Notes under the pieces: generated by a model
What the model saw: the letters and a program-made list of their open reading frames with translations, nothing else
Told to the model about the DNA's origin: nothing
The model's database searches: none
Part shown: piece by piece, positions 11,110-63,282 of the stretch
Numbering within the stretch: the first letter of the stretch is position 1
Layout of the letters: the number at the start of each line of letters is the position of its first letter
Program-made: the position numbers and the translations under genes
Assembly (NCBI RefSeq): GCF_014333525.1
Contig: NZ_JACSCX010000009.1
Location: 1-64,000 of the forward strand
DNA from: Hymenobacter puniceus
GTDB lineage: Bacteria > Bacteroidota > Bacteroidia > Cytophagales > Hymenobacteraceae
Reading direction: 5' to 3'
Length of the DNA: 64,000 nucleotides

Positions 11110-11745
11110 CTAGTATTTTTTGTTGGCTAGCAGAAAGTCCTGCAGCATCTTGATTTCCATCTTCTGGTCGGTGATGATTTGCTGGGCCAGCACCCTGGTG
11201 GCGTTGTCGCGGCCGAACTTGAGCAGAGCGTCCGAATTCTCAATGGCAGCTTGGTGGTGGTCAATCATCAGCTGAGCAAAGTCGAAGTCCGGGTCGCCGG
11301 TGAGGGGGCGCAAATCCACAGCCTTCATCATCTGCATCATGTTCATCATCTGCAGGGCGTTGAACTCGGGCACAGCCGGGGCGTGCGCCGGGTGGCCGGC
11401 CAGGAAGGCGTTGAACTGGGCGATTTCGGCCTGCTGCTTGTCGATAATCGACTGAGCCATGGCCTTCATCTCGGCGCTTTTGCCGCTTTTAATCTCCTCC
11501 TGGCTGTTTTTGATGGCTATCTGGTGGTGCATAATCATCATGGTGGAGTAGTCGTTGTCCGGGTCCTGCGTTTTGGGCATGGACTCCATCATGGCCATCC
11601 CCTCGTGCATGTTGCGCATAAACACGCTCTCATCGTGGCCGATAAGCTCCAGGCCGTTATCGTCGTCCTTGTCGCAGCTGGTGAAAGAAAGGGTGGCCCC
11701 GAGCAGGCACAGTGCGAGCAGGGGCATTCGAAATATCTTGTTCAT
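11110..11745 (-). CDS. DUF305 lipoprotein, copy 1
   Basis: 211 residues from the ATG at 11745; an upstream in-frame ATG at 11790 lacks a signal sequence directly behind it. The signal peptide ends in SFTSC (lipobox). DUF305 domains are four-helix, ferritin-like folds often encoded with copper-resistance genes. Two tandem repeats are visible, each with an MxxHHQ/HHQxAI helix followed by MKAMAQ.IIDKQQAEIAQF or VLAQQIITDQKMEIKML. A copy of the AAATTATGCAA motif lies 82 bp upstream in the right orientation, so it is a predicted regulon member. Confidence 0.85.
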   Translation of the reverse strand: MNKIFRMPLLALCLLGATLSFTSCDKDDDNGLELIGHDESVFMRNMHEGMAMMESMPKTQDPDNDYSTMMIMHHQIAIKNSQEEIKSGKSAEMKAMAQSIIDKQQAEIAQFNAFLAGHPAHAPAVPEFNALQMMNMMQMMKAVDLRPLTGDPDFDFAQLMIDHHQAAIENSDALLKFGRDNATRVLAQQIITDQKMEIKMLQDFLLANKKY

Positions 11746-42565: not shown

Positions 42566-43246
42566 ATGCTACACGCTACTACCCCTCCAGACAAGAATGA
42601 TGCTTTCGTTACCAAGCTACTTGATAAGTTGAAGGCTGAGTTCGAACCCGAGTTGGTACCTATACGGCCGGAGCCTTATGCCAAATCGCTAAACTGCTTT
42701 GCCAATGTTATGGAAAAGGTGAAGTGGGATGGCGGGCGAATTCACTACGGATGGGCTATCCACAAAACAACTATCCTGTGCGAAGCGGAAAGGCATGCGG
42801 TCTGGGAAGATGAGCAGGAAGAGCTCACGGACATCACCCCAACTGAAGTGCAGGCCGAACACACGCTTTTCGTTTCAGACCACGAAGGGTTCGAGTATAC
42901 CGGCCAAGACACGGACAATGTGCGAATCAACATCACCGGCAACCCAGTGGTAGACGATTTCATTCGAGTTAACGAAACGCTTTCCAGGATTCACGCCTAC
43001 GGTACGCGAGCAGATGACATGTACATGCAACTTCCTGACGCTGCCATGGAGCTTCACCAATACTACGACGCGTTGAAAAATGTCTTGCAGGGATTCATTT
43101 ACATGGGCGGTACGCCCAAGAAGCATTGTCTGTGCAAAGGACCTGACCGCTACAGAAACTGTCACGGCAAAAGTATTGGCCCACGCATCAAAGCAGACCT
43201 GCGACAGCTCAAGACTATTCTAGGTGAACCAGGCCGCTCGGCATAG
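42566..43246 (+). CDS. Unknown protein with SEC-C-like zinc motif
   Basis: 226 residues, soluble. The C-terminus has CLCKGPDRYRNCHGK, close to the SEC-C pattern CxC...NCHG that binds zinc in SecA-like and other bacterial proteins. The rest is mixed alpha/beta with no recognised domain. Base composition is lower in GC than in the copper island, as expected for an incoming gene. It lies just before the loxP-like repeat. Confidence 0.6.
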   Translation: MLHATTPPDKNDAFVTKLLDKLKAEFEPELVPIRPEPYAKSLNCFANVMEKVKWDGGRIHYGWAIHKTTILCEAERHAVWEDEQEELTDITPTEVQAEHTLFVSDHEGFEYTGQDTDNVRINITGNPVVDDFIRVNETLSRIHAYGTRADDMYMQLPDAAMELHQYYDALKNVLQGFIYMGGTPKKHCLCKGPDRYRNCHGKSIGPRIKADLRQLKTILGEPGRSA

Positions 43247-43252
43247 GCCATC

Positions 43253-43289
43253 AATAAGGTATGATAAGTCTTAGTTATCATACCTTATT
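43253..43289. promoter_or_regulatory. loxP-like inverted repeat upstream of the recombinase
   Basis: Two perfect 15-bp arms, AATAAGGTATGATAA (43253-43267) and its complement (43275-43289), flank a 7-bp spacer (GTCTTAG). It has no T-run and sits immediately before a perfect TACTTTTG -7 element (43293-43300) of the recombinase gene. Layout and size match Cre-type target sites, so it may be the recombination site, an operator, or both. Confidence 0.6.
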
Positions 43290-43346
43290 CATTACTTTTG
43301 GGAACCGACCACTTATCGCGTTTTCACTCCTTATATATAGGCTGCC

Positions 43347-44306
43347 GTGAGCTCCGTTCCCGTCGTTCCCTCATCGCCCAGCTCCATGGGCCTGGCGCAC
43401 CTGACCCAGCACACGACTCGGTACGTCGAAGCCGGCTTGCAAGGCGCGCCCAATACGGCCCGGGCGTACGCCGGCGACTGGCGCCGCTTCACCGAGTGGT
43501 GCACCGAACACGGACAGGTCGCGCTGCCGGCGTCGGTGGATACGCTTGCCGGCTATGTGACGCACCTGGCCGAAGCCGGCAAAAAAGTGTCGACTATTCA
43601 GCGCAGCTGCGCGGCTATTAGCAAAGCCCACGCCCTGCGTGACCTAGCCTCACCCACGGAGGACAAGAAATTCAAGGTGCTGATGGACGGCATCAGCCGA
43701 TTGAAGGGCGTTCGGCAAAAGCAGGCGCCAGCGTTTTCGCTGGCCAGCTTCAAGCGCATCCTCAAGCACCTCGATGCCAGCACGCCGGCCGGCTTGCGTG
43801 ATAAGGTCATCCTGCTCTTAGGCTTTACCGGCGCCTTCCGGCGGTCGGAGCTGTCGGCGCTAGACCTGGACGACTTGACGTTTTCCGAGGACGGGCTCAC
43901 CATCAACCTCAAACGCAGCAAGACCAACCAGCTGGGGGAAGCGGAAGAAAAGGCCATTTTCTACTCGCCGGACCCCACCCTGTGCCCCATTCGCACGCTG
44001 CAGGCTTGGCTACGGTTGCTAGAACGCACGTCGGGACCGATTCTGGTCTCATTCCGCAAGGGCAGCCGGCTCACAGACCGGCGGCTGACCGATGTGCACC
44101 TCAACAAAATTGTGCAGCGGCACCTGGGCCCGAAGTTTACAGCTCACTCGCTACGGGCTTCCTTCGTGACGGTGGCCAAGCTCAACGGCGCCGACGATAG
44201 CGAGGTGATGAACCAGACAAAGCACAAGACGAGTGAAATGATTCGCCGTTATACACGCCTCGATAATGTGCGCCAACACAATGCCGCTCAAAAGTTAGGT
44301 CTGTAA
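43347..44306 (+). CDS. Cre-like tyrosine recombinase
   Basis: 319 residues from the GTG at 43347 (an ATG at 43386 is an alternative). The core-binding domain (about 20-115) is followed by the catalytic domain, with RxxEL (Arg165), Lys192 region, HSLR (His267/Arg270), His293 and the nucleophile Tyr302 (RRYTR). All required residues are present. The N-terminal and catalytic patterns look more like Cre and plasmid resolution recombinases than XerCD. A 37-bp inverted repeat lies right upstream. Probable role: resolving multimers of the replicon, or integration. Confidence 0.85.
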   Translation: MSSVPVVPSSPSSMGLAHLTQHTTRYVEAGLQGAPNTARAYAGDWRRFTEWCTEHGQVALPASVDTLAGYVTHLAEAGKKVSTIQRSCAAISKAHALRDLASPTEDKKFKVLMDGISRLKGVRQKQAPAFSLASFKRILKHLDASTPAGLRDKVILLLGFTGAFRRSELSALDLDDLTFSEDGLTINLKRSKTNQLGEAEEKAIFYSPDPTLCPIRTLQAWLRLLERTSGPILVSFRKGSRLTDRRLTDVHLNKIVQRHLGPKFTAHSLRASFVTVAKLNGADDSEVMNQTKHKTSEMIRRYTRLDNVRQHNAAQKLGL

Positions 44307-44408: not shown

Positions 44409-45149
44409 CTACATCGACTCGAGGGCCCGAGCATATTTCTCGATATCAATTGCAGGAACGGTGCCTAGTTTTTGAAGCCTGGACAAGAGCTTTAGGAAGA
44501 AATAAATTAACGCTTCTTCAGGAGTGCTGATTTCCCTAATGTTGTCCGCATCCGCATTATAATGGATGTTAAAGCCTCCTTTATCCAGCACACACCCGAT
44601 ATCAATGTGACTACGGGAGTCAAGACTATCAATTACATTAATGAACGGTTCACCAAATGCCTCACTCCATGTTGAATCCAAGCTTAGCATGCCGCCGATG
44701 ATATTGAAATGCTCGCGCGGCTCTTGGATACAACCATCAGCGTGATATACGGGGGCATTAGTACGGGTGAGCAATCGTACTGATTTTATCTTCTCACCCG
44801 CATATTCCAGCGTCTTCTTATCGAAGTTTTGTTTGACTTCAAACACAGCATACACGCTTTCCGCTGGAATGTGGTCCATGCCATTCACGGTCCACACGAA
44901 AGGGGAGTACTGCCGGTCATGAATCACTAAATCTATCTGGTGACTCATGAAGCCATTATGGTCTACCACGAATGCCTTACTGACACAGTACCGTTTCGGC
45001 AGGTACTCCTGGAGCCAGGAGCGCCAACTCTCTTCAGTTACGTCGCCCATTGAGGGTGCATGGGCAACGAGTTGGCGGTTGGTGGTTAGTTTGAGAGACA
45101 TCTGCTTCTGCAGACTATTGAAGGCAGCTTTTAAGTCGAAATGGTTCAT
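44409..45149 (-). CDS. DUF6602 protein, PD-(D/E)XK nuclease-like, candidate CBASS effector
   Basis: 246 residues. IDLVIHD (about residues 72-78) followed by VYAVFEVKQ (about 97-105) gives the D...ExK spacing of PD-(D/E)XK nucleases, which is the DUF6602 pattern. It is the last gene of a four-gene minus-strand unit with a CD-NTase; its ATG overlaps the stop of the E2-E1-JAB gene (45146-45149). A nuclease triggered by the cyclic nucleotide is an inference from position; no ligand-binding domain such as SAVED is visible. Confidence 0.65.
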   Translation of the reverse strand: MNHFDLKAAFNSLQKQMSLKLTTNRQLVAHAPSMGDVTEESWRSWLQEYLPKRYCVSKAFVVDHNGFMSHQIDLVIHDRQYSPFVWTVNGMDHIPAESVYAVFEVKQNFDKKTLEYAGEKIKSVRLLTRTNAPVYHADGCIQEPREHFNIIGGMLSLDSTWSEAFGEPFINVIDSLDSRSHIDIGCVLDKGGFNIHYNADADNIREISTPEEALIYFFLKLLSRLQKLGTVPAIDIEKYARALESM

Positions 45150-47284
45150 GCTGGGGACTGACTATAATTGTGGAGCTTGCCTTTGTGTTGGACGAAAAAA
45201 TGGGGCACCACCTGATGCTGTTTGGTTTGGGCGATGAGTAGCAGTGGGGTACTGGCTCGCACCTGAGGGTGGGCCGCCAGTCGGGCAATGGTGGCTTTAT
45301 CCGTTGAGCTAGGCTGGGAAGGACCATCCGGGTGCGAGTGCCAATCGCCGAGGTATTGCAGTTGCTCGGGTAGTGCTTGCAACTGCCGGTTAATGCAGGC
45401 CGGGTCAGGAGCGAATGAGGCAGGGGAATTCTTGAATTTGGTCGGAATAATAATTCGGCTGACGATGGCGCAACCACCGTCTTCCGAATAATTTCCTACC
45501 AGCACCCCTCCAAACTCTTTCGGATGATGCAGCAGGGTTAGTTGTTTAATTTGCTCTAGGCACTCGCCGGTGATAACCAGCCGCAGACCTAGCTGATTTT
45601 GAGTGTAATGCTGGTCGGCGCTAACCTGGATGCCACGACCCGGCACATGGTGCAAGCTGAAGGTGCGGAATGATTTTCTTTGACGGGCCATTTCGGCTAA
45701 TTCACTAACAGCAAGTCCAACCATTGCTTCGATATTGGCGCCGGCCGCCCGGAACGTAGGATGCCAACACCCTGCCCCTTCGCGAAACTCAGGATAGGCG
45801 GGTCGGCCCACATGAGCCAATAACTGCTCGCGCCGCTCCTGCAGAGAGCATTCGTCACCCCCAGCTACTGCAATCAATTCTTCGGCTCCTTCCGTGACGG
45901 AGATATGAACGACCCGGGTAGCTGGCACGGCGTGATGGAGCGTGGTGAGCACCTCATTGTTGGCGGAGCAGTCGAATATCAGGTCGTATTTATCCAGCCA
46001 TGCGGTGGTTTTCGCCCAGTTGTGGGCCCCGGGCGCGGTGTTCGGTATGCTGTCGTGTATTTGGACTGAGACGTAGGGAGAAAGAGCTTGCAGGTGCTGC
46101 TGCAGGGCCAAGCTTTTGGCCGCGCCGGCATCCCGGAACCGGTAGCGGCTTCGGCAAATGTTACCTGGCGCAACCAAGTCTGATTCAGCAAAATCTAGTT
46201 TTCGCTGGCCACCCCTCACCAAGGTTTCTGCTATGCAGCTGCCTATTGCGCCAACACCAATAATTAGAACTCGACTACCAACAAGCGCTTCCGTCAGTTG
46301 CCCACGCCCAAAGAAGCGAGAGTAGGCGGCATTGCTAGCTTCACCCCAGACCAGTCTTTGCTTGCTCAAAGCCTCAAAACGGCTTCGAACGGCGAAGGTC
46401 GATGAGTCCCGCCGAAGCAGACTGAGGGGGAGAAACAAAGTGTCCCACGTTATTTCCTGCCCACCGCTGCCCGGTATTGGGTAGCCGACAGCGAGCATGA
46501 ATCGGTTGCCCAAGGTAATTGGCGACTGACGACGAAACCCGTGGTCCAATCCTAGCTGACGCAACTGCGTGTAGAAGTCTTCCGGTAGCAACGGCAATAG
46601 GTCCTTCCAGTGTTCGACACGCAGCTTGTGCCGCAGGACGGGCTCCTGGCTCAGCAATGTCCACATGCCAGCGTAACGGGCCTGCTGAGCGTTGGCAGCC
46701 CACCGAGCTGCAACATTGCCTAAGCCGGAACCAAGAAAAGCAGGCGCTTGTGTGGGCAGGTCAACGGCGGTATTGGCGGGGCGAAGCAGTGAATAAGCAA
46801 ACGTGCCGCTTTGCTGGGTGGCGAAACGGTCCGCAGTATTGTCCGTGGGTTCCTCGTCGAACAGGAGATGGCCGCATTTGGCTCCGCGAATGGGAATATA
46901 CTCGTAGTGCTCGTCAATTTCCTCCTGCACGTAATACCGCGTCAGCCAGCCGTGCAGCTGCTGTATTTCCTGCGCCAGGCGAGTAGGCAGATGGTTGATG
47001 GTGGGAGTGGTCAGACAGAGAAAACCGCCGTGCAGCGGGAGCTTGGCAACGCCTTGGTGCGCGTAGCCCACTATTTCTTTGGGCCAAAACAATACTTCTC
47101 CCTGCGGGTAGGCTTCGGGCACGTGCACGGTGAAATGCACGGGGCCTTTGGCCGTTTCTACCCTGATGCCACCGACGTGCCGGGCTGGAGCCGCTTCGAA
47201 TACGAAGGGCTCCAGCAAGGTTACGTTGGGTTCAGCTGCGAAGAACGTGTTGAAGAACCGTGTATCCGCAACGTTATCAACCAT
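45146..47284 (-). CDS. E2-E1-JAB fusion protein of a CBASS-like operon (Cap2-Cap3 fusion)
   Basis: 712 residues with three modules. Residues 20-140: an E2-like domain with candidate catalytic Cys90 (GFLCL). Residues 320-560: a ThiF/E1 domain with VLIIGVGAIGS (Gly343 region) and a likely E1 Cys at 506 (GAGCWHP). Residues 570-712: a JAB/JAMM domain with Glu590 and HSHPDGPSQPSSTD (His649, His651, Ser659, Asp662), the complete zinc protease motif. In type II CBASS, Cap2 (E2-E1) conjugates the CD-NTase and Cap3 (JAB) removes it; here both activities are in one chain. It overlaps the CD-NTase gene by 8 bp. Confidence 0.85.
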   Translation of the reverse strand: MVDNVADTRFFNTFFAAEPNVTLLEPFVFEAAPARHVGGIRVETAKGPVHFTVHVPEAYPQGEVLFWPKEIVGYAHQGVAKLPLHGGFLCLTTPTINHLPTRLAQEIQQLHGWLTRYYVQEEIDEHYEYIPIRGAKCGHLLFDEEPTDNTADRFATQQSGTFAYSLLRPANTAVDLPTQAPAFLGSGLGNVAARWAANAQQARYAGMWTLLSQEPVLRHKLRVEHWKDLLPLLPEDFYTQLRQLGLDHGFRRQSPITLGNRFMLAVGYPIPGSGGQEITWDTLFLPLSLLRRDSSTFAVRSRFEALSKQRLVWGEASNAAYSRFFGRGQLTEALVGSRVLIIGVGAIGSCIAETLVRGGQRKLDFAESDLVAPGNICRSRYRFRDAGAAKSLALQQHLQALSPYVSVQIHDSIPNTAPGAHNWAKTTAWLDKYDLIFDCSANNEVLTTLHHAVPATRVVHISVTEGAEELIAVAGGDECSLQERREQLLAHVGRPAYPEFREGAGCWHPTFRAAGANIEAMVGLAVSELAEMARQRKSFRTFSLHHVPGRGIQVSADQHYTQNQLGLRLVITGECLEQIKQLTLLHHPKEFGGVLVGNYSEDGGCAIVSRIIIPTKFKNSPASFAPDPACINRQLQALPEQLQYLGDWHSHPDGPSQPSSTDKATIARLAAHPQVRASTPLLLIAQTKQHQVVPHFFVQHKGKLHNYSQSPA

Positions 47285-48293
47285 AGGTAGTAGCGGGATA
47301 GGTGGTCTGCTTCACGGCCGCGTTTTGCTCGTAGCGGCTGGATGCCTTTGCGGGTTCCTTGTCCTTGGGCTTATCCTCGCAGGGGAACTTGGGATTGACC
47401 GGGAAATAGAATTTGAGCTTATTACTGTCGGCCTCAATCTGTTTCAGTGCCCGCTTCATTTCCTTGGCCAGCTTCTTTTTCTGACGGTCGGTGAGGCTGT
47501 TGGTGACGTTGTTGCCGGAGTTGCCGGGGTCAAGCAGGTTGATGGTTTCGATGTTGTCCCTGATGAACTCCATCGTAAGCTTCAGCCGGTCCCACCGGCC
47601 GCTGGGCACGTTGGCTTCCCCCTTATCGTCGAACGACTTGATGGTAAGCAATTCCAACAGAAACGACTTTAGCTTGGTGAAGTGCTCGAATTTCCAAGCC
47701 TTCAATAGCTTGACCGTTTCGCGCTCTTTCTTCCGGCCCTTGATGTGGTCGATTTGCTTGGCGATGTTGGTTTTCATGCGGCCCGACGAGTCCTCGTCGT
47801 TGAGGCATAAGTTCAGGTCGAAGCAGCTCGTGTCATCGTCGCTGATGCGCCGGCCAGGCGTGATGTCGAAGTTGAGTACCTCGTCGTCGACCAAGAAGAA
47901 CAAGCCGACCGAGACCTTTTGGGCCCGCACTTCGGTAAGGTCGCCTACTTCGTCGCTGAACTCGTCGCTTTCGAGGTATTCCAACACGTCGTCGTACATC
48001 ACCCGCAGGGTGGTGAAGGCGCTGCGCTTAAAGTTCACGCACAAGTCCATGTCAAACTTGATGTTGATGGCCGTGTGCTTGGCGTAGGAGCCCGAATGCT
48101 GAATGCAGCGGATGTTGCTACCGAATTTGTTTTCCAGCGCGGCCTGCACCTTGTCGCGCTTTTTGCGGTAGCGGTCAGCCAGGCTTTCGTTATCCTCAAC
48201 CAGGTCTTCTTCCAGGTTGATGCCGTAGGAGCGGTGCACGCAACCTAGGTAATCGTTCTTGTTTAAGTCCGCCATAACGGTTTTAATGGGCAT
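47277..48293 (-). CDS. CD-NTase (cyclic oligonucleotide synthase)
   Basis: 338 residues from the ATG at 48293; an ATG at 48275 is also plausible, while the open frame further upstream lacks conservation signs. The nucleotidyltransferase motifs are GSYAKHT (Gly68-Ser69), DMD (Asp81/Asp83) and a third Asp in NFDITPG (Asp143), all intact. CD-NTases make cyclic di- or trinucleotides on phage infection. The C-terminal tail (about 300-338) is flexible and ends in TTYG; a C-terminal Gly-type tail is the substrate of Cap2 in type II systems, which fits. Confidence 0.85.
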   Translation of the reverse strand: MPIKTVMADLNKNDYLGCVHRSYGINLEEDLVEDNESLADRYRKKRDKVQAALENKFGSNIRCIQHSGSYAKHTAINIKFDMDLCVNFKRSAFTTLRVMYDDVLEYLESDEFSDEVGDLTEVRAQKVSVGLFFLVDDEVLNFDITPGRRISDDDTSCFDLNLCLNDEDSSGRMKTNIAKQIDHIKGRKKERETVKLLKAWKFEHFTKLKSFLLELLTIKSFDDKGEANVPSGRWDRLKLTMEFIRDNIETINLLDPGNSGNNVTNSLTDRQKKKLAKEMKRALKQIEADSNKLKFYFPVNPKFPCEDKPKDKEPAKASSRYEQNAAVKQTTYPATTYG

Positions 48294-48390
48294 GTAAGGG
48301 GTGGCCTCCTTCCGCAACAGGGCTGCAGAGGGTGGTAGCAGTAGCCCGGCGCCACTACGGTAGTAACGCCGGGCAGTGCAAAAAATGGGG

Positions 48391-48612
48391 TTAGCCTTTG
48401 CTGGATTCCGGGTCGCTGCCGTAGCTGTTCTTTTCCCGGATTTGACCATTGCGGCCGTGAATCAGCATTTCGCTGCCGCGGCTAGTGGCCATTTGCCGGG
48501 CCACCTGAATGGCCTGGACTTGGGTGGAAACAATGGTGGCAGCGCGGGATGCGCCAGCGGTTTTGACGGCCCAGCCAGTGGAGCGGGGCACGACATGCAA
48601 GTTCTTGGCCAT
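48391..48612 (-). CDS. DUF2188 small protein
   Basis: 73 residues. MAKNLHVVP, GWAVKTAGASRA, IQVARQMA and MLIHGRNGQIREKNSYGSDP follow the DUF2188 pattern in order. The start at 48612 gives the complete domain. It is 97 bp upstream of the CD-NTase gene on the same strand and may be the first gene of the CBASS-like operon or an independent gene. The function of DUF2188 is unknown. Confidence 0.75.
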   Translation of the reverse strand: MAKNLHVVPRSTGWAVKTAGASRAATIVSTQVQAIQVARQMATSRGSEMLIHGRNGQIREKNSYGSDPESSKG

Positions 48613-50462: not shown

Positions 50463-53400
50463 TCAGGCAGCGTAGGCGTCTTCTTCGATAAGGTGACGAA
50501 CCAGGCCAAGAGTGACCAGGGTATCGAGTAGCGGCTGGACGCGAGCTGGGCCTGCTCCGCGAAAGCGCTTGGCCACCTGGGCGGCTGTGAGGGGCATTTC
50601 GGCTAGCTGGATAGCCGTGCGAAGGGCTTGCATCTGCTGGGCGAGGTCCTGGGGCCAGGCGTTGGAGGCCTCTCCTACCCCGTTCACAGGTAGCGCTGCG
50701 GCGTCCGATAACTTGGTGGCTTTGTTGCCTTTGGCCGCCGCAGTGGGCGCAGGCAGGATAAGGCCGGCCTGCACGGTTTCGGGGGCCTGATAAGCGGGGC
50801 GGAGGTAACGGACGTGACCCCCTTGCTCCTCGCGGGCGCGCTGGTGGTTGAGGTGCACCAGTCGCTGGAGCAGTTCGGGAGCAGACAAGTCAGTAGGCCA
50901 GCCGTAGGCTTCGGCCACGGCGGTATCGAGCTGCTGGTGGAGACTGAGCACCACGGCGGCCAGGCCGTGCTGGTGTACGGTTTCTTCCTTGGCCGTAAGG
51001 GGCTGGCCGGCGCGCAGCTTCTCGACCACGTTGTAGAGGTCGGTGAGGGCCAGCGTGGGATGCAAGGCCTGCTGGCGCTTGCGGTGCGCATCCAGCGCCT
51101 CGGCCAGTGCCCGGATGCGCTCTTGCTGTTCTACTGTGGCTTTGGGGAAGGGAAACGGTTGAAAGCAGCGGGAGCTCGTGTATACGGAGTCGTTGCCGAC
51201 ACCAAGCCAGCTACCACTAGCCATTGCCCATTCAACGTGAATTCGGCTTGACAAGACCCCTAAATTGTACGCATCATCAAAAGCAATATTGACAAGCTTG
51301 TGGTCTGGGGCTATATCGACATCCAGAAATTGAAATATGCGGTGTTTGGCCGTTTCTGGTGTGGCAATGTAGCGAGTCAGACCTTGTGTGGCCGCACGTA
51401 AGCCTTTGCGGGTTTCGCCGAACTGCCACCAGATTTCCTTGAGCTTTTTGCGGTTGTTTTGGTCGCGGTCGGGCTTAACGTGGGTATAGACGTGCTGGTA
51501 CACGGCCGGATAGTCGCGGATGACATCGGCTTCGTTCAGGCCAAACAAGTCAATAAGGTACACGCCACGCGGCCGGGCGGTCAGGTCTTTGCCGTTGCGG
51601 TAGGGCCGGATGCGGGTTGCAAGGCCAGCCACCGTGCCCAGGCCCAAAGTGTGGGCCTGCGCCTCAGTCACGATAAAGCCCGCACCGGCCAGCATCATGC
51701 CGTTGCTGGAAACGCCTTCATTCGCCTTCAGCGCTTTGACCCCAGCCACGTCGGCCCCCACCGTAAAGTCGGCGTTGATAATGCCCTCGCTTTCCACCAG
51801 CTCCACGGTGTGGGCATCGTCTTCGTCGGTGACCGACTCGCGCACCAGGGTGGCCAGCTTGCCCACCTGGGTGCCGGCCCGGCCTACGCTCATGGCGATG
51901 CGCACGGCCGCGCCGTTGGCACTATCCACCCACGGGTGGTCGGCAATGGCGAACGTCAGCGATAGCGGCGGAGCCGCATCGAGGTGGCGCTGGATGAGGC
52001 GGCGGTTAAAGGTTTGGGTAATGGAGTTGGTGGTGATGAAGCCGAAGGACTCGGCCTGACCCTGCCGCACTGTCTCAGCGGCCCGCTCCCACCAGTACAT
52101 CACCAAGTCGGCGGACTCGTCCACTTTGCCCTTGTACACTTTGCGCAGCGTATCCACGTAGGCGTCGCCCAGCGCGCGGCGCATGGCTTTATCGCCGACA
52201 AACGGAGGGTTGCCGATGATGAAATCAGCCTGGGGCCATGCGGCAGGCCCGGCCTGGGTAAAGTCGGGTTCGTAGCTCAGTACGGCATCCTGCTGGCGGA
52301 TATTCTGGTAGCTATCGAGTAGGGGCTCGGCCAGCTGGGTGAGGCCGTGGGTGCGCAGGTGCCACTGCAGGTAGCCGATGCGCAGCACCACGTCGGCAAT
52401 GGCGGCGGCCCGCGGGTTCAGCTCCAAGCCCAGCAGCTGGCGGGGGGAGACGGTGGTGGCCCCACCCAAATCGAGCAGGCCCGACTGGCCGAAGCGGTTG
52501 ATGGCCGTAATTACCTCCCCTTCCAGCCGCTTGAGGTGTTCCAGCGTGACGTAGAGAAAGTTGCCGGAGCCGCAGGCTGGGTCGAGAATCTTGACCGTGG
52601 TGAGGCGGGTGAGGAAGCGCAGCAAGTCTTGGCGGGCGGCTCGCTCCCCAGCCGGGCCGGCAGTTTCGTCGAGGCGGCGGGCGCTGGCGGCCTGAGCGGC
52701 GGCCCACTCGCGGCGCAGGGGCTCCAGCACGGTGGGCAGCACCAGGCGCTCCACGTAGCGGCGCGGGGTGTAGTGCGCCCCGAGGCTGTGCCGCTCTTTG
52801 GGGTCGAGGGCGCGTTCGAGCAGGGTGCCGAAGATGGCGGGTTCCACTTCAGTCCAGTCGGCGGCAGCGGCACGCAGAAGCAGGTGAATCTGGGGCTCGG
52901 TGAGGGGCAGCGTGGTGGCCTCGTGAAAGAGTTGGCCGTTAAAGCGGCGCAGGCGGGCCCGCAGGTCGCCGGAGAAGCCACCGGTGTCCATCGTATGCCA
53001 GAGGCTTTGCAAGGCGTCGGGCAGCAGCTGGCGCAATTCCGGAGTGCTGGCATACTGCTGCAGCAAGCCGGTGAAGCTGGCGCGGGGAATCAGTTCTACG
53101 TCCTCAGCAAACATAGTAAACAGGCAGCGCATCAGGAACTGGGCCACGGCCTCGGAGGCATGGCCAGCGGCTTCGAGCTGCTTGCTCAACTCGGCCAAGT
53201 GAGCAGCGAGCTGACGGGTGACCTGGGCCGCGCGGCGGCTGGGGTCGAGCTGCTGCGGGTCGGTGAAGAGCAGAGCCAGGCGCTGGCGCACTACTTCGTC
53301 TTCGAGGGCGGTGAGCGGGATGCGGAAGGCCTCGGTGCCGCCGCCGGCGGGTAGCGTGGGCTTGTAGCCGGGAATGCCGGTGAGCAGGTCCAAGAACTGC

Positions 53401-53915
53401 GTGAAGCCTTCGGCGGTACCGGCGAAATTGGCGTAAAGGTCGAAGCAGTGGCCCACGTCGGCCACGATGACGAAGGGCGGGCGCGGCTCCTGTGCGGGCA
53501 GGGCCTGCACATAGCGCAGGGCCTGGTTGCGGGCCTCGGTCATCATCAGGTCCCACTTGCGGGTGCCGCGGACGGCGTGCCCCCGGCGGCGACGCTCCTG
53601 GGGTGCCTGGCCAAGTGCGGCCGCGTCGGCGGCATCGGCCCGTTGCTGGTCGTCGGGTGAGTTGGTGCCCTGCTTGGTTTCGAGCACGAAGCAGCCGCGC
53701 TTGTAAAGGTCGAGACGGCCGGTGCTTTTTTTGGCCCCATCCTGAAACGTGACAGCCCGCTCGTACACATAGGCATCCTGGGAAGCTAGCTCGCCGGAGG
53801 GCTGTGGTGGCTCGACGCCAAGCAGGGCGCAAAGCTCGTGCAGGAAGGCTTGGTAATTCGCGCGCTCGGCGCCGCCGCTGCGCAGCCAGCGGGCAGCAAA
53901 ATCAGAATAGGTCAC
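50463..53915 (-). CDS. Single-chain type IIG/IIL restriction-modification enzyme
   Basis: 1150 residues, starting with GTG. The N-terminal part has [17 protein letters not shown], a D...ExK nuclease motif as in MmeI-type enzymes. The methyltransferase follows, with [17 protein letters not shown] (motif I) and GNPPF (motif IV), giving an N6-adenine enzyme. The C-terminal 450 residues form the target recognition and helical spacer part. Cleavage and methylation in one chain make it a self-contained defence gene, co-directional with the toxin-antitoxin pair. No frameshift is visible. Confidence 0.85.
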
Positions 53916-59569: not shown

Positions 59570-60196
59570 CTATTTTTCCCCAGGGAATGTGCGTGAGCGC
59601 TGGACGTATTTATATACGGTACCATACGCAATAGCTGTTTGCTTGCTAATCTGGTTCATCGACACACCTGCCGCATGCAGCTGGGCGATTTTCTGTTGCT
59701 GATCTAGCGGCAACGTCGGCCGGGAAATGGCCTTGCCTTGTGCTTTGGCCCGCGCCATGCCGGCGCGCACGCGCTGGCTGATAAGCGCACTTTCAAATTG
59801 AGCCAGCGAGGCCATGACGTGGAAAATCAATTCACCCGTTGGCGTGGTGGTATCGATGTTTTCCTGGTAGGAGATGAAGTCCACCCCCAGGCTTTGGAAC
59901 TCCTTAAGCGCGTTAACCAGCGCTTGGGTGGAGCGGGCAAAGCGGTCGTAGCGCCAGACCAACACGATGTCGATTTGGCGCTTCTTGGCAGCGGCCATCA
60001 TCGTTTTATACTCGCGCCGCTCCTCACTCGTGCCGGAAGCCTGGTCCACGTACTCGGACGCTACAGCGAAGCCCCGGTGCTGGGCATACTCGCGCAGGGG
60101 CCGCAGCTGCGTCTCCGGGTCCTGGCCTTTGTCCAGGGTGGAGACGCGGGCGTAGAGGGCTACGCGCTTGGGTTGGGCAGTGGGGGAAAGAGGCAT
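59570..60196 (-). CDS. tnpR: Serine resolvase of the Tn3 transposon
   Basis: 208 residues. The catalytic serine is Ser19 in YARVST; LVWRYDRFARSTQALVNAL and the C-terminal HTH (about 165-200: AQLHAAGVSMNQISKQTAIAYGTVYKYV) complete the resolvase/invertase plan. It resolves cointegrates at the res site and is encoded divergently from tnpA, as in the Tn3 subgroup. Confidence 0.92.
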   Translation of the reverse strand: MPLSPTAQPKRVALYARVSTLDKGQDPETQLRPLREYAQHRGFAVASEYVDQASGTSEERREYKTMMAAAKKRQIDIVLVWRYDRFARSTQALVNALKEFQSLGVDFISYQENIDTTTPTGELIFHVMASLAQFESALISQRVRAGMARAKAQGKAISRPTLPLDQQQKIAQLHAAGVSMNQISKQTAIAYGTVYKYVQRSRTFPGEK

Positions 60197-60200
60197 TGGT

Positions 60201-60302
60201 GGCTATCGAAAAGGAACTCCTTTGTAAAGCTACTTTTTTGGGTGTAAAATCGGCCCGGACACCCCCAAAAAAGGGGGTGCGTTTCGACACCCTTTTCGAT
60301 AG
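60201..60302. promoter_or_regulatory. res-like region between tnpR and tnpA
   Basis: CTATCGAAAAGG (60203-60214) is repeated inverted as CCTTTTCGATAG (60291-60302). Between them lies a hairpin CACCCCC-AAAAAA-GGGGGTG (60260-60279) and further GACACC copies. The position between divergent tnpR and tnpA is that of res. Confidence 0.65.
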
Positions 60303-60312
60303 GCCGCCGCCC

Positions 60313-63282
60313 ATGCCGCTCGACTTCCTCTCTGCCCCGGAACGGCTGCGCTACCAGACCGTGCCCGCCACCTTGCTCGAAGCCGATCTGCGGCAGCAGT
60401 TCCACCTGACGGAGGCGGACCGGCAGTTCCTCGCCTCCTTTCGCGGGGCGGCCAACCGGTTGGGCGTCGCCCTGCAGCTGGGGCTGTTGCGGCTGATGGG
60501 CTTTCTGCCGGACACCTGGTGGGAGCATCTGCCGCCCGACGTGCTGCCGTTCGTCGCTACCCAGCTGCAGGAGGAGTCGCCGGGGCTCAGCGCGTACGGC
60601 ACCCGCCAGCAAACCCGCAGCGAGCATTTTCTGGCCGTGCTCAAGCACCTGGGCTTTCGCAAGTGGGAGCCGCTGGACATGGCCTGGCTGGAGCCCTGGC
60701 TGGTGGAGCGGGCCCTGGAGCACGACGACGAGCGGGTGCTGCTGGCCATGACCTGCCTGCGGCTGCAGCAGGAGAAAATCGTGCGCCCCGCCATCGGCAC
60801 GCTGGAGCGGCTGGTGGGCAGCATGAGCGAGCTGGCCTACCAGGAAACGTATCGGCGTTTGGTGCCGCTGTTGAGTGAAGACGTGTGCTGGCAACTGGAC
60901 CAATTGCTGTTGCCGGATGAGGCCCTGCGCATCACCCGCCACCGCTGGCTGGTGCAGATGGCTACGGTCGGCAATCCGGCCGCCATCACCACGGCCCTCG
61001 ATAAGCTCCGCTACCTGGGCGAGTTGGGCGTGCCGGCCTGGGAAGTACATAGTCTGCACCCGAACCGGCAGAAGCGCCTGGCCCTGCTGGCCCGCAACCG
61101 CTCCAACCGCCACCTCGAACGCCTGCCCGCCCCCAAGCGCTACCCGCTGCTGGTGGCGTTCCTGCGCGAGAGCTACCTGACGCTCACCGACGAGGTGCTG
61201 AGCATGTTCGATGCCTACTGGGAACACAGCCTGGCCAAGGCCCGCCGCGCCCACGATCAGTACCAGCAGCAGATTGCTGCCGCCAAAGACACGGCCCTGC
61301 GTACGCTGGCTCAGGCCGTGGAAATCGTACTCGACGAGGAGCAAACTCCGGCCGGGCAGGTGCGCCCGAGTGTGTTCGCCCGCATTCCCCGCGAGCAGCT
61401 GGTTCTGGCCTGGGAAGCGGTGCAAACGATGCTCTACCCGACTCGTCATTCCCACCTTACGTTCCTGGCCAGGCGCTACAGCCTCTTCAAACAATTCACA
61501 CCCCGGCTGCTGGCGCAGATCAGCTTCCAGCACGGCTTTACCGGCGACGACTTCCCGGCCGCGCTGGAATTGGTCGCCGACCTGCAGGCGGGCCGCCGCC
61601 GGAAGCTGCCAGCCGCTCTGCCCACGGGCTTTTTGAAACCGACCTGGCGCAAGCTGGTCGTCGCGGAAGACAGCCCGGAACCGGACGTGCGCCACGCCTA
61701 CGAGCTGTGCGTGCTCTCCACGCTGCGTGATCGGCTGCGCTCGGGTGACGTGTACGTAGCCCCCTCGCATCAGTACGCCGACTTGAGCAGCTACCTGATT
61801 AGCCCGGCCGAGTGGGAGCGGGTGAAAGGCGAGTTATGCGCCCAACTGAACCTGCCCGCCGTCACCACGGACCGGCTCACCCAACGTTTGCAGGAGCTAC
61901 AGGAGCTGCTGGCCCCGATGCAACAGCTGCTGGAAGCCGGGGGCGACGTGCGGCTGGAGGACGGGGAACTGGTCGTGGGCCGGGTCAGCGCGGAGGAAGT
62001 GCCGGCCGCAGCCCAGGCCCTGCAGCAGGAAATCAGCCGCCGCTTGCCGGTGGTAGATTTGACTGACATTCTGGTCGAGGTCAACACCTGGCTGGGCTTC
62101 ACCGACCACCTGCCGGGTCTGGAACACGCCCCGCGCGGTGAGGGGCACGATACACGCCTGCTGGCCGGAGTGCTCGCGCTGGGTTGCAACATTCCGCTCA
62201 CCGACATGGCCCGCAGCACAGGCCTGCCCTACCAGTCGCTCTGGTGGACGGCCTCCAATTACCTGCGCGACGACACGCTCAAAGCGGCCAATACGCTCCT
62301 GGTCAATGAGCACCACCGGCAGTGGCTGGCTTCGTACTGGGGCAGCGGCACATTTTCCTCCTCGGACGGGCAGCGTTTCGCCGTTAGCGGTAAGGTGCGT
62401 AATGCCCGGTCCCTGCCTACCTACTTCGGCACCGGCCGGGGCGTGACCATGCAGACGCACTCCTCGGATCAATACTCGCAGTACGGCAGCAAGGTCGTGC
62501 CGGCCACCTTGCGCGACGCCACCATCGTGCTCGATGAGATTGTCGATAACCAGACCGAGTTGGCCATCGTCGAGCACACGACCGACACGGCGGGCTACTC
62601 GGACATCATCTTCGCGCTGTTTGATTTGCTGGGCCTGTTTTTCTGCCCCCGCATGCGGGACCTCGCCGACCAGAAGCTCTACAAAATCCGGGGCGCGGAT
62701 TGGACGTATCCCGACCTCAAGTTTACGGGTACCCTCAACCCGGACTACATCCGCCGGCATTGGGACGAGCTGCTGCGGCTGGCCGGCTCCATCAAGTCCG
62801 GCCGGGTAACGGCCTCGCTCTTCATCAGCAAGCTACAGGCCTATCCCCGGCAAAACCACCTGACCTACGTGCTGCAGGCCTACGGCCAGCTCATCAAGAC
62901 CAACTTCATCCTGCGCTACCTGCAGAGCCAGCCGCTGCGGCGGCGCATTCACGCCCAACTCAATAAAGGAGAAGAACTGCACGCCCTACGGGCCTGGCTG
63001 TGGTTTGGCAGTGAGGGCGTGATCCGGCGCAAGCAACAGGAAGAGCAGGCCGAAGCCGCTCGCTGCCTGACGCTGCTCACCAACTGCGTGCTGCTCTGGA
63101 ATACGGTCTATATGCAAGAGGTCCTGCAGCAGCTGCAAGCCGAAGGCTATCCGGTGGACGAGGCCCATTTTGAGTATCTCTCGCCCAGCCGCTACGAGCA
63201 CATCAACCGGCTGGGCAAGTATTCCTTCGAGAATCCGGCGCAGGCGGACCCGCAGCACCGTCGACCCTTACGCCAGCCGTAA
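60313..63282 (+). CDS. tnpA: Tn3-family transposase
   Basis: 989 residues from the ATG at 60313 (the open frame begins at 60196, in the res region, and is rejected). The N-terminal DUF4158-type DNA-binding region starts PLDFLSAPERLRYQ. The C-terminal DDE domain has GCNIPLTDMARSTG, DGQRFAVSG and the region DQYSQYGSKVVPATLRDATIVLDEI, ending with GLFFCPRMRDL and WLWFGSEGVIRR..LTLLTNCVLLWNT, standard for Tn3 TnpA. Length is typical and no frameshift is seen. The right inverted repeat follows 23 bp later. Confidence 0.93.
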   Translation: MPLDFLSAPERLRYQTVPATLLEADLRQQFHLTEADRQFLASFRGAANRLGVALQLGLLRLMGFLPDTWWEHLPPDVLPFVATQLQEESPGLSAYGTRQQTRSEHFLAVLKHLGFRKWEPLDMAWLEPWLVERALEHDDERVLLAMTCLRLQQEKIVRPAIGTLERLVGSMSELAYQETYRRLVPLLSEDVCWQLDQLLLPDEALRITRHRWLVQMATVGNPAAITTALDKLRYLGELGVPAWEVHSLHPNRQKRLALLARNRSNRHLERLPAPKRYPLLVAFLRESYLTLTDEVLSMFDAYWEHSLAKARRAHDQYQQQIAAAKDTALRTLAQAVEIVLDEEQTPAGQVRPSVFARIPREQLVLAWEAVQTMLYPTRHSHLTFLARRYSLFKQFTPRLLAQISFQHGFTGDDFPAALELVADLQAGRRRKLPAALPTGFLKPTWRKLVVAEDSPEPDVRHAYELCVLSTLRDRLRSGDVYVAPSHQYADLSSYLISPAEWERVKGELCAQLNLPAVTTDRLTQRLQELQELLAPMQQLLEAGGDVRLEDGELVVGRVSAEEVPAAAQALQQEISRRLPVVDLTDILVEVNTWLGFTDHLPGLEHAPRGEGHDTRLLAGVLALGCNIPLTDMARSTGLPYQSLWWTASNYLRDDTLKAANTLLVNEHHRQWLASYWGSGTFSSSDGQRFAVSGKVRNARSLPTYFGTGRGVTMQTHSSDQYSQYGSKVVPATLRDATIVLDEIVDNQTELAIVEHTTDTAGYSDIIFALFDLLGLFFCPRMRDLADQKLYKIRGADWTYPDLKFTGTLNPDYIRRHWDELLRLAGSIKSGRVTASLFISKLQAYPRQNHLTYVLQAYGQLIKTNFILRYLQSQPLRRRIHAQLNKGEELHALRAWLWFGSEGVIRRKQQEEQAEAARCLTLLTNCVLLWNTVYMQEVLQQLQAEGYPVDEAHFEYLSPSRYEHINRLGKYSFENPAQADPQHRRPLRQP

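Follow-up and report, generated by a model that had tools for sequence, protein, structure and literature searches.

The Cre/loxP system of phage P1, together with its relatives Dre/rox, Vika/vox, Nigri/nox and Panto/pox, combines a single-protein recombinase with an inverted-repeat site that contains an asymmetric spacer and lies close to the recombinase gene. The action of P1 Cre at loxP resolves plasmid multimers (PMC8138268), and mid-size, low-copy plasmids of the Enterobacteriaceae have been reported to encode a recombinase of their own (PMC11724359). The lox architecture is 13-8-13, and the target is known for few Cre-like enzymes, identification of the site being the hard step (PMC4957104); the SeLOX setting used in that study was fixed on an 8-bp spacer, so that searches of this kind would miss sites of 14-7-14 form. 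Dimer resolution is also the function of XerCD at dif, cer and pdif, where the dif-type site has asymmetric arms, bound by two proteins, on either side of a 6-bp central region. The inner arm bases of dif are TTATG/CATAA.

The window considered here (the whole stretch of DNA that was analysed, 64 kb in length) starts at the first base of C16, a Hymenobacter contig of 105,830 bp, and its segment 43253-44306 very probably represents a plasmid-encoded Cre/loxP-like system consisting of a recombinase and its own site. Judged from sequence comparisons, the reading of this segment as a candidate Cre/loxP-like pair, put forward in an initial annotation, is largely supported, and it can be proposed with high confidence that the pair works like Cre/loxP. 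In common with that system, it displays a single-protein recombinase for which Cre is the best profile and fold match, an inverted-repeat site with an asymmetric spacer near the gene, and one site on a low-copy plasmid replicon; it differs in having symmetric arms of 14 bp, whose inner GATAA is invariant, around a spacer of 7 bp, in its occurrence on Cytophagales plasmids, and in the overlap of the site with the recombinase’s own promoter. Its inner TTATC/GATAA resembles that of dif, and a role in dimer resolution would be shared with XerCD; the differences are a single, plasmid-encoded recombinase, symmetric arms, a spacer of 7 bp, and scores far below the curated XerC and XerD cut-offs (54.2 and 53.1 bits versus 335 and 330).

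The recombinase and its adjoining inverted repeat

The features of the locus, all on the forward strand, are as follows.

43253-43267, forward: left arm of the predicted recombination site, AATAAGGTATGATAA
43254-43267, forward: conserved core of the left arm, ATAAGGTATGATAA
43268-43274, forward: asymmetric 7-bp spacer GTCTTAG, the presumed overlap region; 7 bp in the 14-7-14 frame of 101 of 119 relatives
43275-43289, forward: right arm of the predicted recombination site, TTATCATACCTTATT
43275-43288, forward: conserved core of the right arm, TTATCATACCTTAT
43293-43300, forward: Bacteroidota -7 promoter box TACTTTTG (TAnnTTTG), conserved 3-4 bp, sometimes 7 or 11 bp, past the site
43325-43341, forward: conserved leader CACTCCTTATATATAGG directly ahead of the start codon, kept in most close relatives
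43347-44306, forward: Cre-like tyrosine recombinase, 319 amino acids, GTG start

The repeat at 43253-43289 is a perfect 15-7-15 inverted repeat in which both 15-bp arms are fully complementary (complementarity is still 94% when the arms are lengthened to 18 nt each), and the recombinase starts, with a GTG at 43347, 57 bp past its end. This geometry, and the presence of the promoter box at 43293, are as the initial annotation had described them, and the entire region is identical in a closely related record from Hymenobacter translucens (L005). A search for a second copy of the site, suggested by the same annotation, found none with up to three mismatches in the 64-kb window (0.00 expected by shuffling) and none in the whole genome assembly; the site is also the only one of the 14-7-14 type on the full 105,830-bp contig.

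The recombinase contains the Pfam Phage_integrase domain and a SAM-like N-terminal domain, and its claimed likeness to Cre is borne out by comparisons of both profile and fold. A profile of 40 relatives identified Cre as the best solved protein (E 1.5e-23), with XerD far weaker (1.3e-8), and a fold search with an AlphaFold model (mean pLDDT 82, pTM 0.60) returned Cre as its top match (E 6.7e-11). The corresponding TM-score, about 0.48, is low, which may be attributed to uncertain domain arrangement in the model; identity to Cre in the fold alignment is about 16-19%. The two proteins align over their full length, and the recombinase displays both a Cre-like two-domain fold and the RKHRH/W-Y catalytic set: R165, K192, H267, R270, H293 and Y302 correspond to R173, K201, H289, R292, W315 and Y324 of Cre. 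All of these except H293 are invariant among the 40 relatives, and H293 is kept in most of them and replaced by Q in some distant members.

Conservation of the site beside related recombinases

Conservation of the site was assessed in a defined set of 119 related recombinases from Hymenobacter genomes and plasmids (two of them from Runella), by scoring the form N9-GATAA-N7-TTATC-N9 within 650 bp upstream of the recombinase. A full site was present in 101 of the 119. Dinucleotide shuffles of the upstream regions, used as the control because sequence reversal is invalid for plain inverted repeats, gave 0-1 (about 0.4) per 119, and the recombinase genes themselves contained a site in 0 of 119; a chance origin of the repeat is thereby excluded. 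Similarly, at 56 loci taken from genome contigs, almost all recombinases were accompanied by an inverted repeat, mostly 90-150 bp before the match. Sites also adjoin relatives in Spirosoma, Runella, Tunicatimonas and Alicyclobacillus, the last of which belongs to a different phylum and retains the site at 39% protein identity. A full nearby site is absent in the remaining 18 relatives, some of which are downstream genes in operons. In L079, L190, L196 and L207, only a right half-site precedes the recombinase, which would fit a loss of the left arm.

The site is therefore of the Cre/lox type in being an inverted repeat with an asymmetric spacer near the gene, and this part of the original proposal stands; the lox-type arm and spacer lengths do not, in that the conserved core is 14-7-14 rather than 13-8-13 and spacers of even length are uncommon (2-5 of 119 loci). 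Within that core the inner GATAA/TTATC is almost invariant, and the outer nine bases of the arms define many types (GGTAT, GGTCC, GGACT, ACCCTC, AGTACC and others), with left and right arms changing slowly, symmetrically and together. Among recombinase pairs at a protein distance below 0.06, the arms differ at 1.2 of 28 bases and the spacers at 2.0 of 7, and among the approximately 100 recombinases with a predicted site the left arms comprise 45 different sequences and the spacers 65. Constrained arms around a free spacer are the expectation for a recombinase site, since the arms are recognised by the protein and the spacer need only match its own copy. Protein and arm distances are correlated (Mantel r 0.67), a value that is partly expected from joint inheritance of site and gene and is not proof of matched specificity; specificity residues sought by mutual information gave signals that tracked phylogeny and were unusable. 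In nine cases (L012, L029, L072, L168, L209, L221, L223, L249 and L266) the spacer seems to be reverse-complemented relative to the gene, a change that parallel-aligned recombination alone should not produce.

Homology breakpoints, plasmid distribution and alternative readings

The Bacteroidota -7 box follows the site, mostly by 3-4 bp, and is perfect in 39 of 97 loci where 2.2 would be expected. Since this arrangement places the upstream promoter region inside the site, bound recombinase should block transcription, and autoregulation of the kind first suggested for this locus fits the pattern: the recombinase probably represses its own gene by binding the site. The position of the site directly upstream of the conserved box also favours the alternative that the repeat is an operator only, bound by the recombinase or by another regulator, with recombination taking place elsewhere; in a dyad operator, too, the arms would be symmetric and constrained and the centre free. 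That alternative is unlikely in view of three observations: (i) in 59 of 72 alignments of related plasmids, the start of homology falls no more than 20 bp from the site’s left edge, including a pair (L009/L010) in which 6,050 bp of 99.9% identity begin exactly at the site’s first base and the DNA immediately to the left is unrelated; (ii) orphan sites occur without a family recombinase nearby (L062, L096, L118, L130 and L131, and also on contig C15 of the same genome as the window); and (iii) the site is found as far as 0.4-1 kb upstream of the recombinase, with at least one small gene between, in Runella, Tunicatimonas and Alicyclobacillus.

Additional breakpoints were observed at the site. 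In G026, two copies share the same spacer and right arm and carry different left arms, which places the junction at the border of arm and spacer. The left flank of the window matches L154 with 92% identity over 2.3 kb, and in L154 the matching flank runs through a window-type site with an identical spacer and then into another site with another recombinase. In L114, L128 and L132 there are tandem sites that differ in type; as a general feature, tandem sites were considered and set aside, being present in 1 of 100 loci at a strict threshold and hence exceptional. Orphan and tandem sites fit past exchanges, and recall the described pdif modules (PMC5790767). The breakpoints show rearrangement at the site, and it is from such genome footprints that recombination there, with the family recombinase as the presumed enzyme, is deduced.

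Several arrangements were observed alongside these comparisons. On C15 (L067), at about 11635-11730, two orphan 14-7-14 sites of different type lie side by side and adjoin a nucleotidyltransferase-like gene, with that contig’s own recombinase and site 10 kb away. Both L072 and L017 contain, besides the intact recombinase, a second one that is divergent and partial; the two face each other and share the single site between them. The duplicated promoter region of L017 forms a 56-bp inverted arm on each side. A short palindrome around GATAAGGGGCCCTTATC is repeated in NZ_CP095065.1 and NZ_CP095066.1 (L100, L103, L113), in 9 and 3 copies, and where looked at these copies are not beside a family recombinase.

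The left homology boundaries at the site might also reflect an integrase that moves a cassette or element, the site being its attachment site and the pair spreading by integration and excision; one copy on an 875-kb contig, and another in the largest contig of a different genome, would accord with such a history. This reading is quite unlikely, because most plasmids carry one site and so lack a flanking pair of attachment sites, identity can extend for at least 5 kb past the gene without a second boundary (L009/L010; a search for a second site at the far end of the additional 4 kb of L010 gave none), no arm-binding domain was recognised in the recombinase, and the family, ubiquitous on Hymenobacter plasmids, is almost absent from viral contigs (one relative, at 32%).

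The distribution of the family points instead to a plasmid function for the recombinase and its site. It is present in 101 of 120 Hymenobacter genomes; none of the 9 single-contig genomes has it, as against 24 of the 26 that comprise 2-7 contigs (Fisher P 8e-7). Genes for a Rep3 initiator, ParA, TraM and a conjugation coupling protein identify the contig that contains the window as a whole plasmid or the greater part of one. The sole GATAA-N7-TTATC is the one beside the recombinase in 11 of 20 plasmid records; the general arrangement is a circular plasmid that has one site and encodes its own recombinase, and the exceptions include plasmids with a second recombinase-site pair or an orphan site. 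Because one site per low-copy plasmid with its own recombinase is the arrangement of multimer resolution, that role is proposed, and the site and recombinase most likely serve to resolve plasmid multimers, as do Cre and loxP, with occasional plasmid rearrangement at the site. The plasmids that carry the family (65-330 kb) are in or near the size class of the Enterobacteriaceae plasmids noted above (PMC11724359), and differ from them in phylum, in recombinase family, and in that several exceed 250 kb. Selected orthogonality or incompatibility of co-resident plasmids was considered and rejected, similar arms being observed within strains 5 times against 5.35 expected (permutation, P 0.55). Two contigs of G092 carry near-complete head-to-tail duplications around the recombinase, either a real plasmid dimer or an assembly artefact, with two copies 100.5 kb apart in the 200.7-kb contig C4 and 111.6 kb apart in C7; an interpretation of C4 as an unresolved dimer was set aside as evidence, an assembly duplication being possible.

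The initial annotation had itself named a terminator of the upstream gene (42566-43246) as the outcome that would speak against a recombination site. The repeat begins 7 nt past that gene’s stop codon, folds well (-22.2 kcal/mol, z -4.6) and was flagged by a terminator scan; a terminator or other RNA hairpin is nevertheless rejected as very improbable. Across relatives the repeat stays with the recombinase that follows it, even where the gene before it is a different one or is oriented away. One relative that shares the upstream gene possesses a GC-rich terminator distinct from its own site, which comes after that terminator. G-T and A-C arm mismatches are equally common (37 versus 31), revealing no bias toward RNA pairing, and the stem lacks a directly following T run. 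A hairpin telomere resolvase, converting the palindrome into linear plasmid ends, recommends itself in that tyrosine-recombinase relatives act on inverted repeats and two records are labelled linear, and is extremely improbable given the asymmetric 7-bp spacer, the internal position of the sites away from replicon ends, the listing of most plasmids as circular (the ends of C15 overlap by 77 bp), and the Cre-like fold and size of the protein.

Proposed mechanism, significance and neighbouring genes

By analogy with Cre, the recombinase would bind the two 14-15-bp arms as a dimer, and the bound site would come together with a second copy, strand exchange taking place across the 7-bp spacer. Plasmid dimerisation would supply that second copy, such that the reaction resolves multimers to monomers, and binding would at the same time cover the upstream part of the recombinase’s promoter and lead to self-repression. 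The breakpoints further suggest that occasional exchange with sites on other plasmids, or with stray sites, may join new DNA at this position and leave orphan or tandem sites behind.

The pair is best placed in a large family of natural Cre-like plasmid recombination systems, a new branch that has 14-7-14 sites and has apparently not been described before. No paper on Hymenobacter plasmid recombinases was found, and the novelty is limited by the literature searched. A broader and distinctly more tentative proposal, possible rather than probable, is that these systems form a diversified Cre/lox-like family with dozens of arms and a 7-bp overlap, which both resolves multimers and shuffles plasmid modules, with tandem and orphan sites as the record; if true, the family would provide a natural data set for reading the code between recombinase residues and site sequence. 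The approximately 100 pairs of recombinase and predicted site, from plasmids of a poorly studied group, are candidate orthogonal tools for genome engineering, and they make two questions testable: how the DNA specificity of tyrosine recombinases shifts in nature, and whether plasmids become mosaic through exchange at their resolution sites.

Further genes downstream of the recombinase in the window are as follows.

44409-48449, reverse: CBASS operon, directly downstream of the recombinase
44409-45149, reverse: CBASS NucC-like effector
45146-47284, reverse: CBASS E1-E2/JAB protein
47277-48449, reverse: CBASS oligonucleotide cyclase
50463-53915, reverse: Type IIG restriction-methylation protein
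59570-63282: Tn3-family transposase with serine resolvase

The CBASS operon and the Type IIG protein together constitute a defence cluster that adjoins the recombination site.
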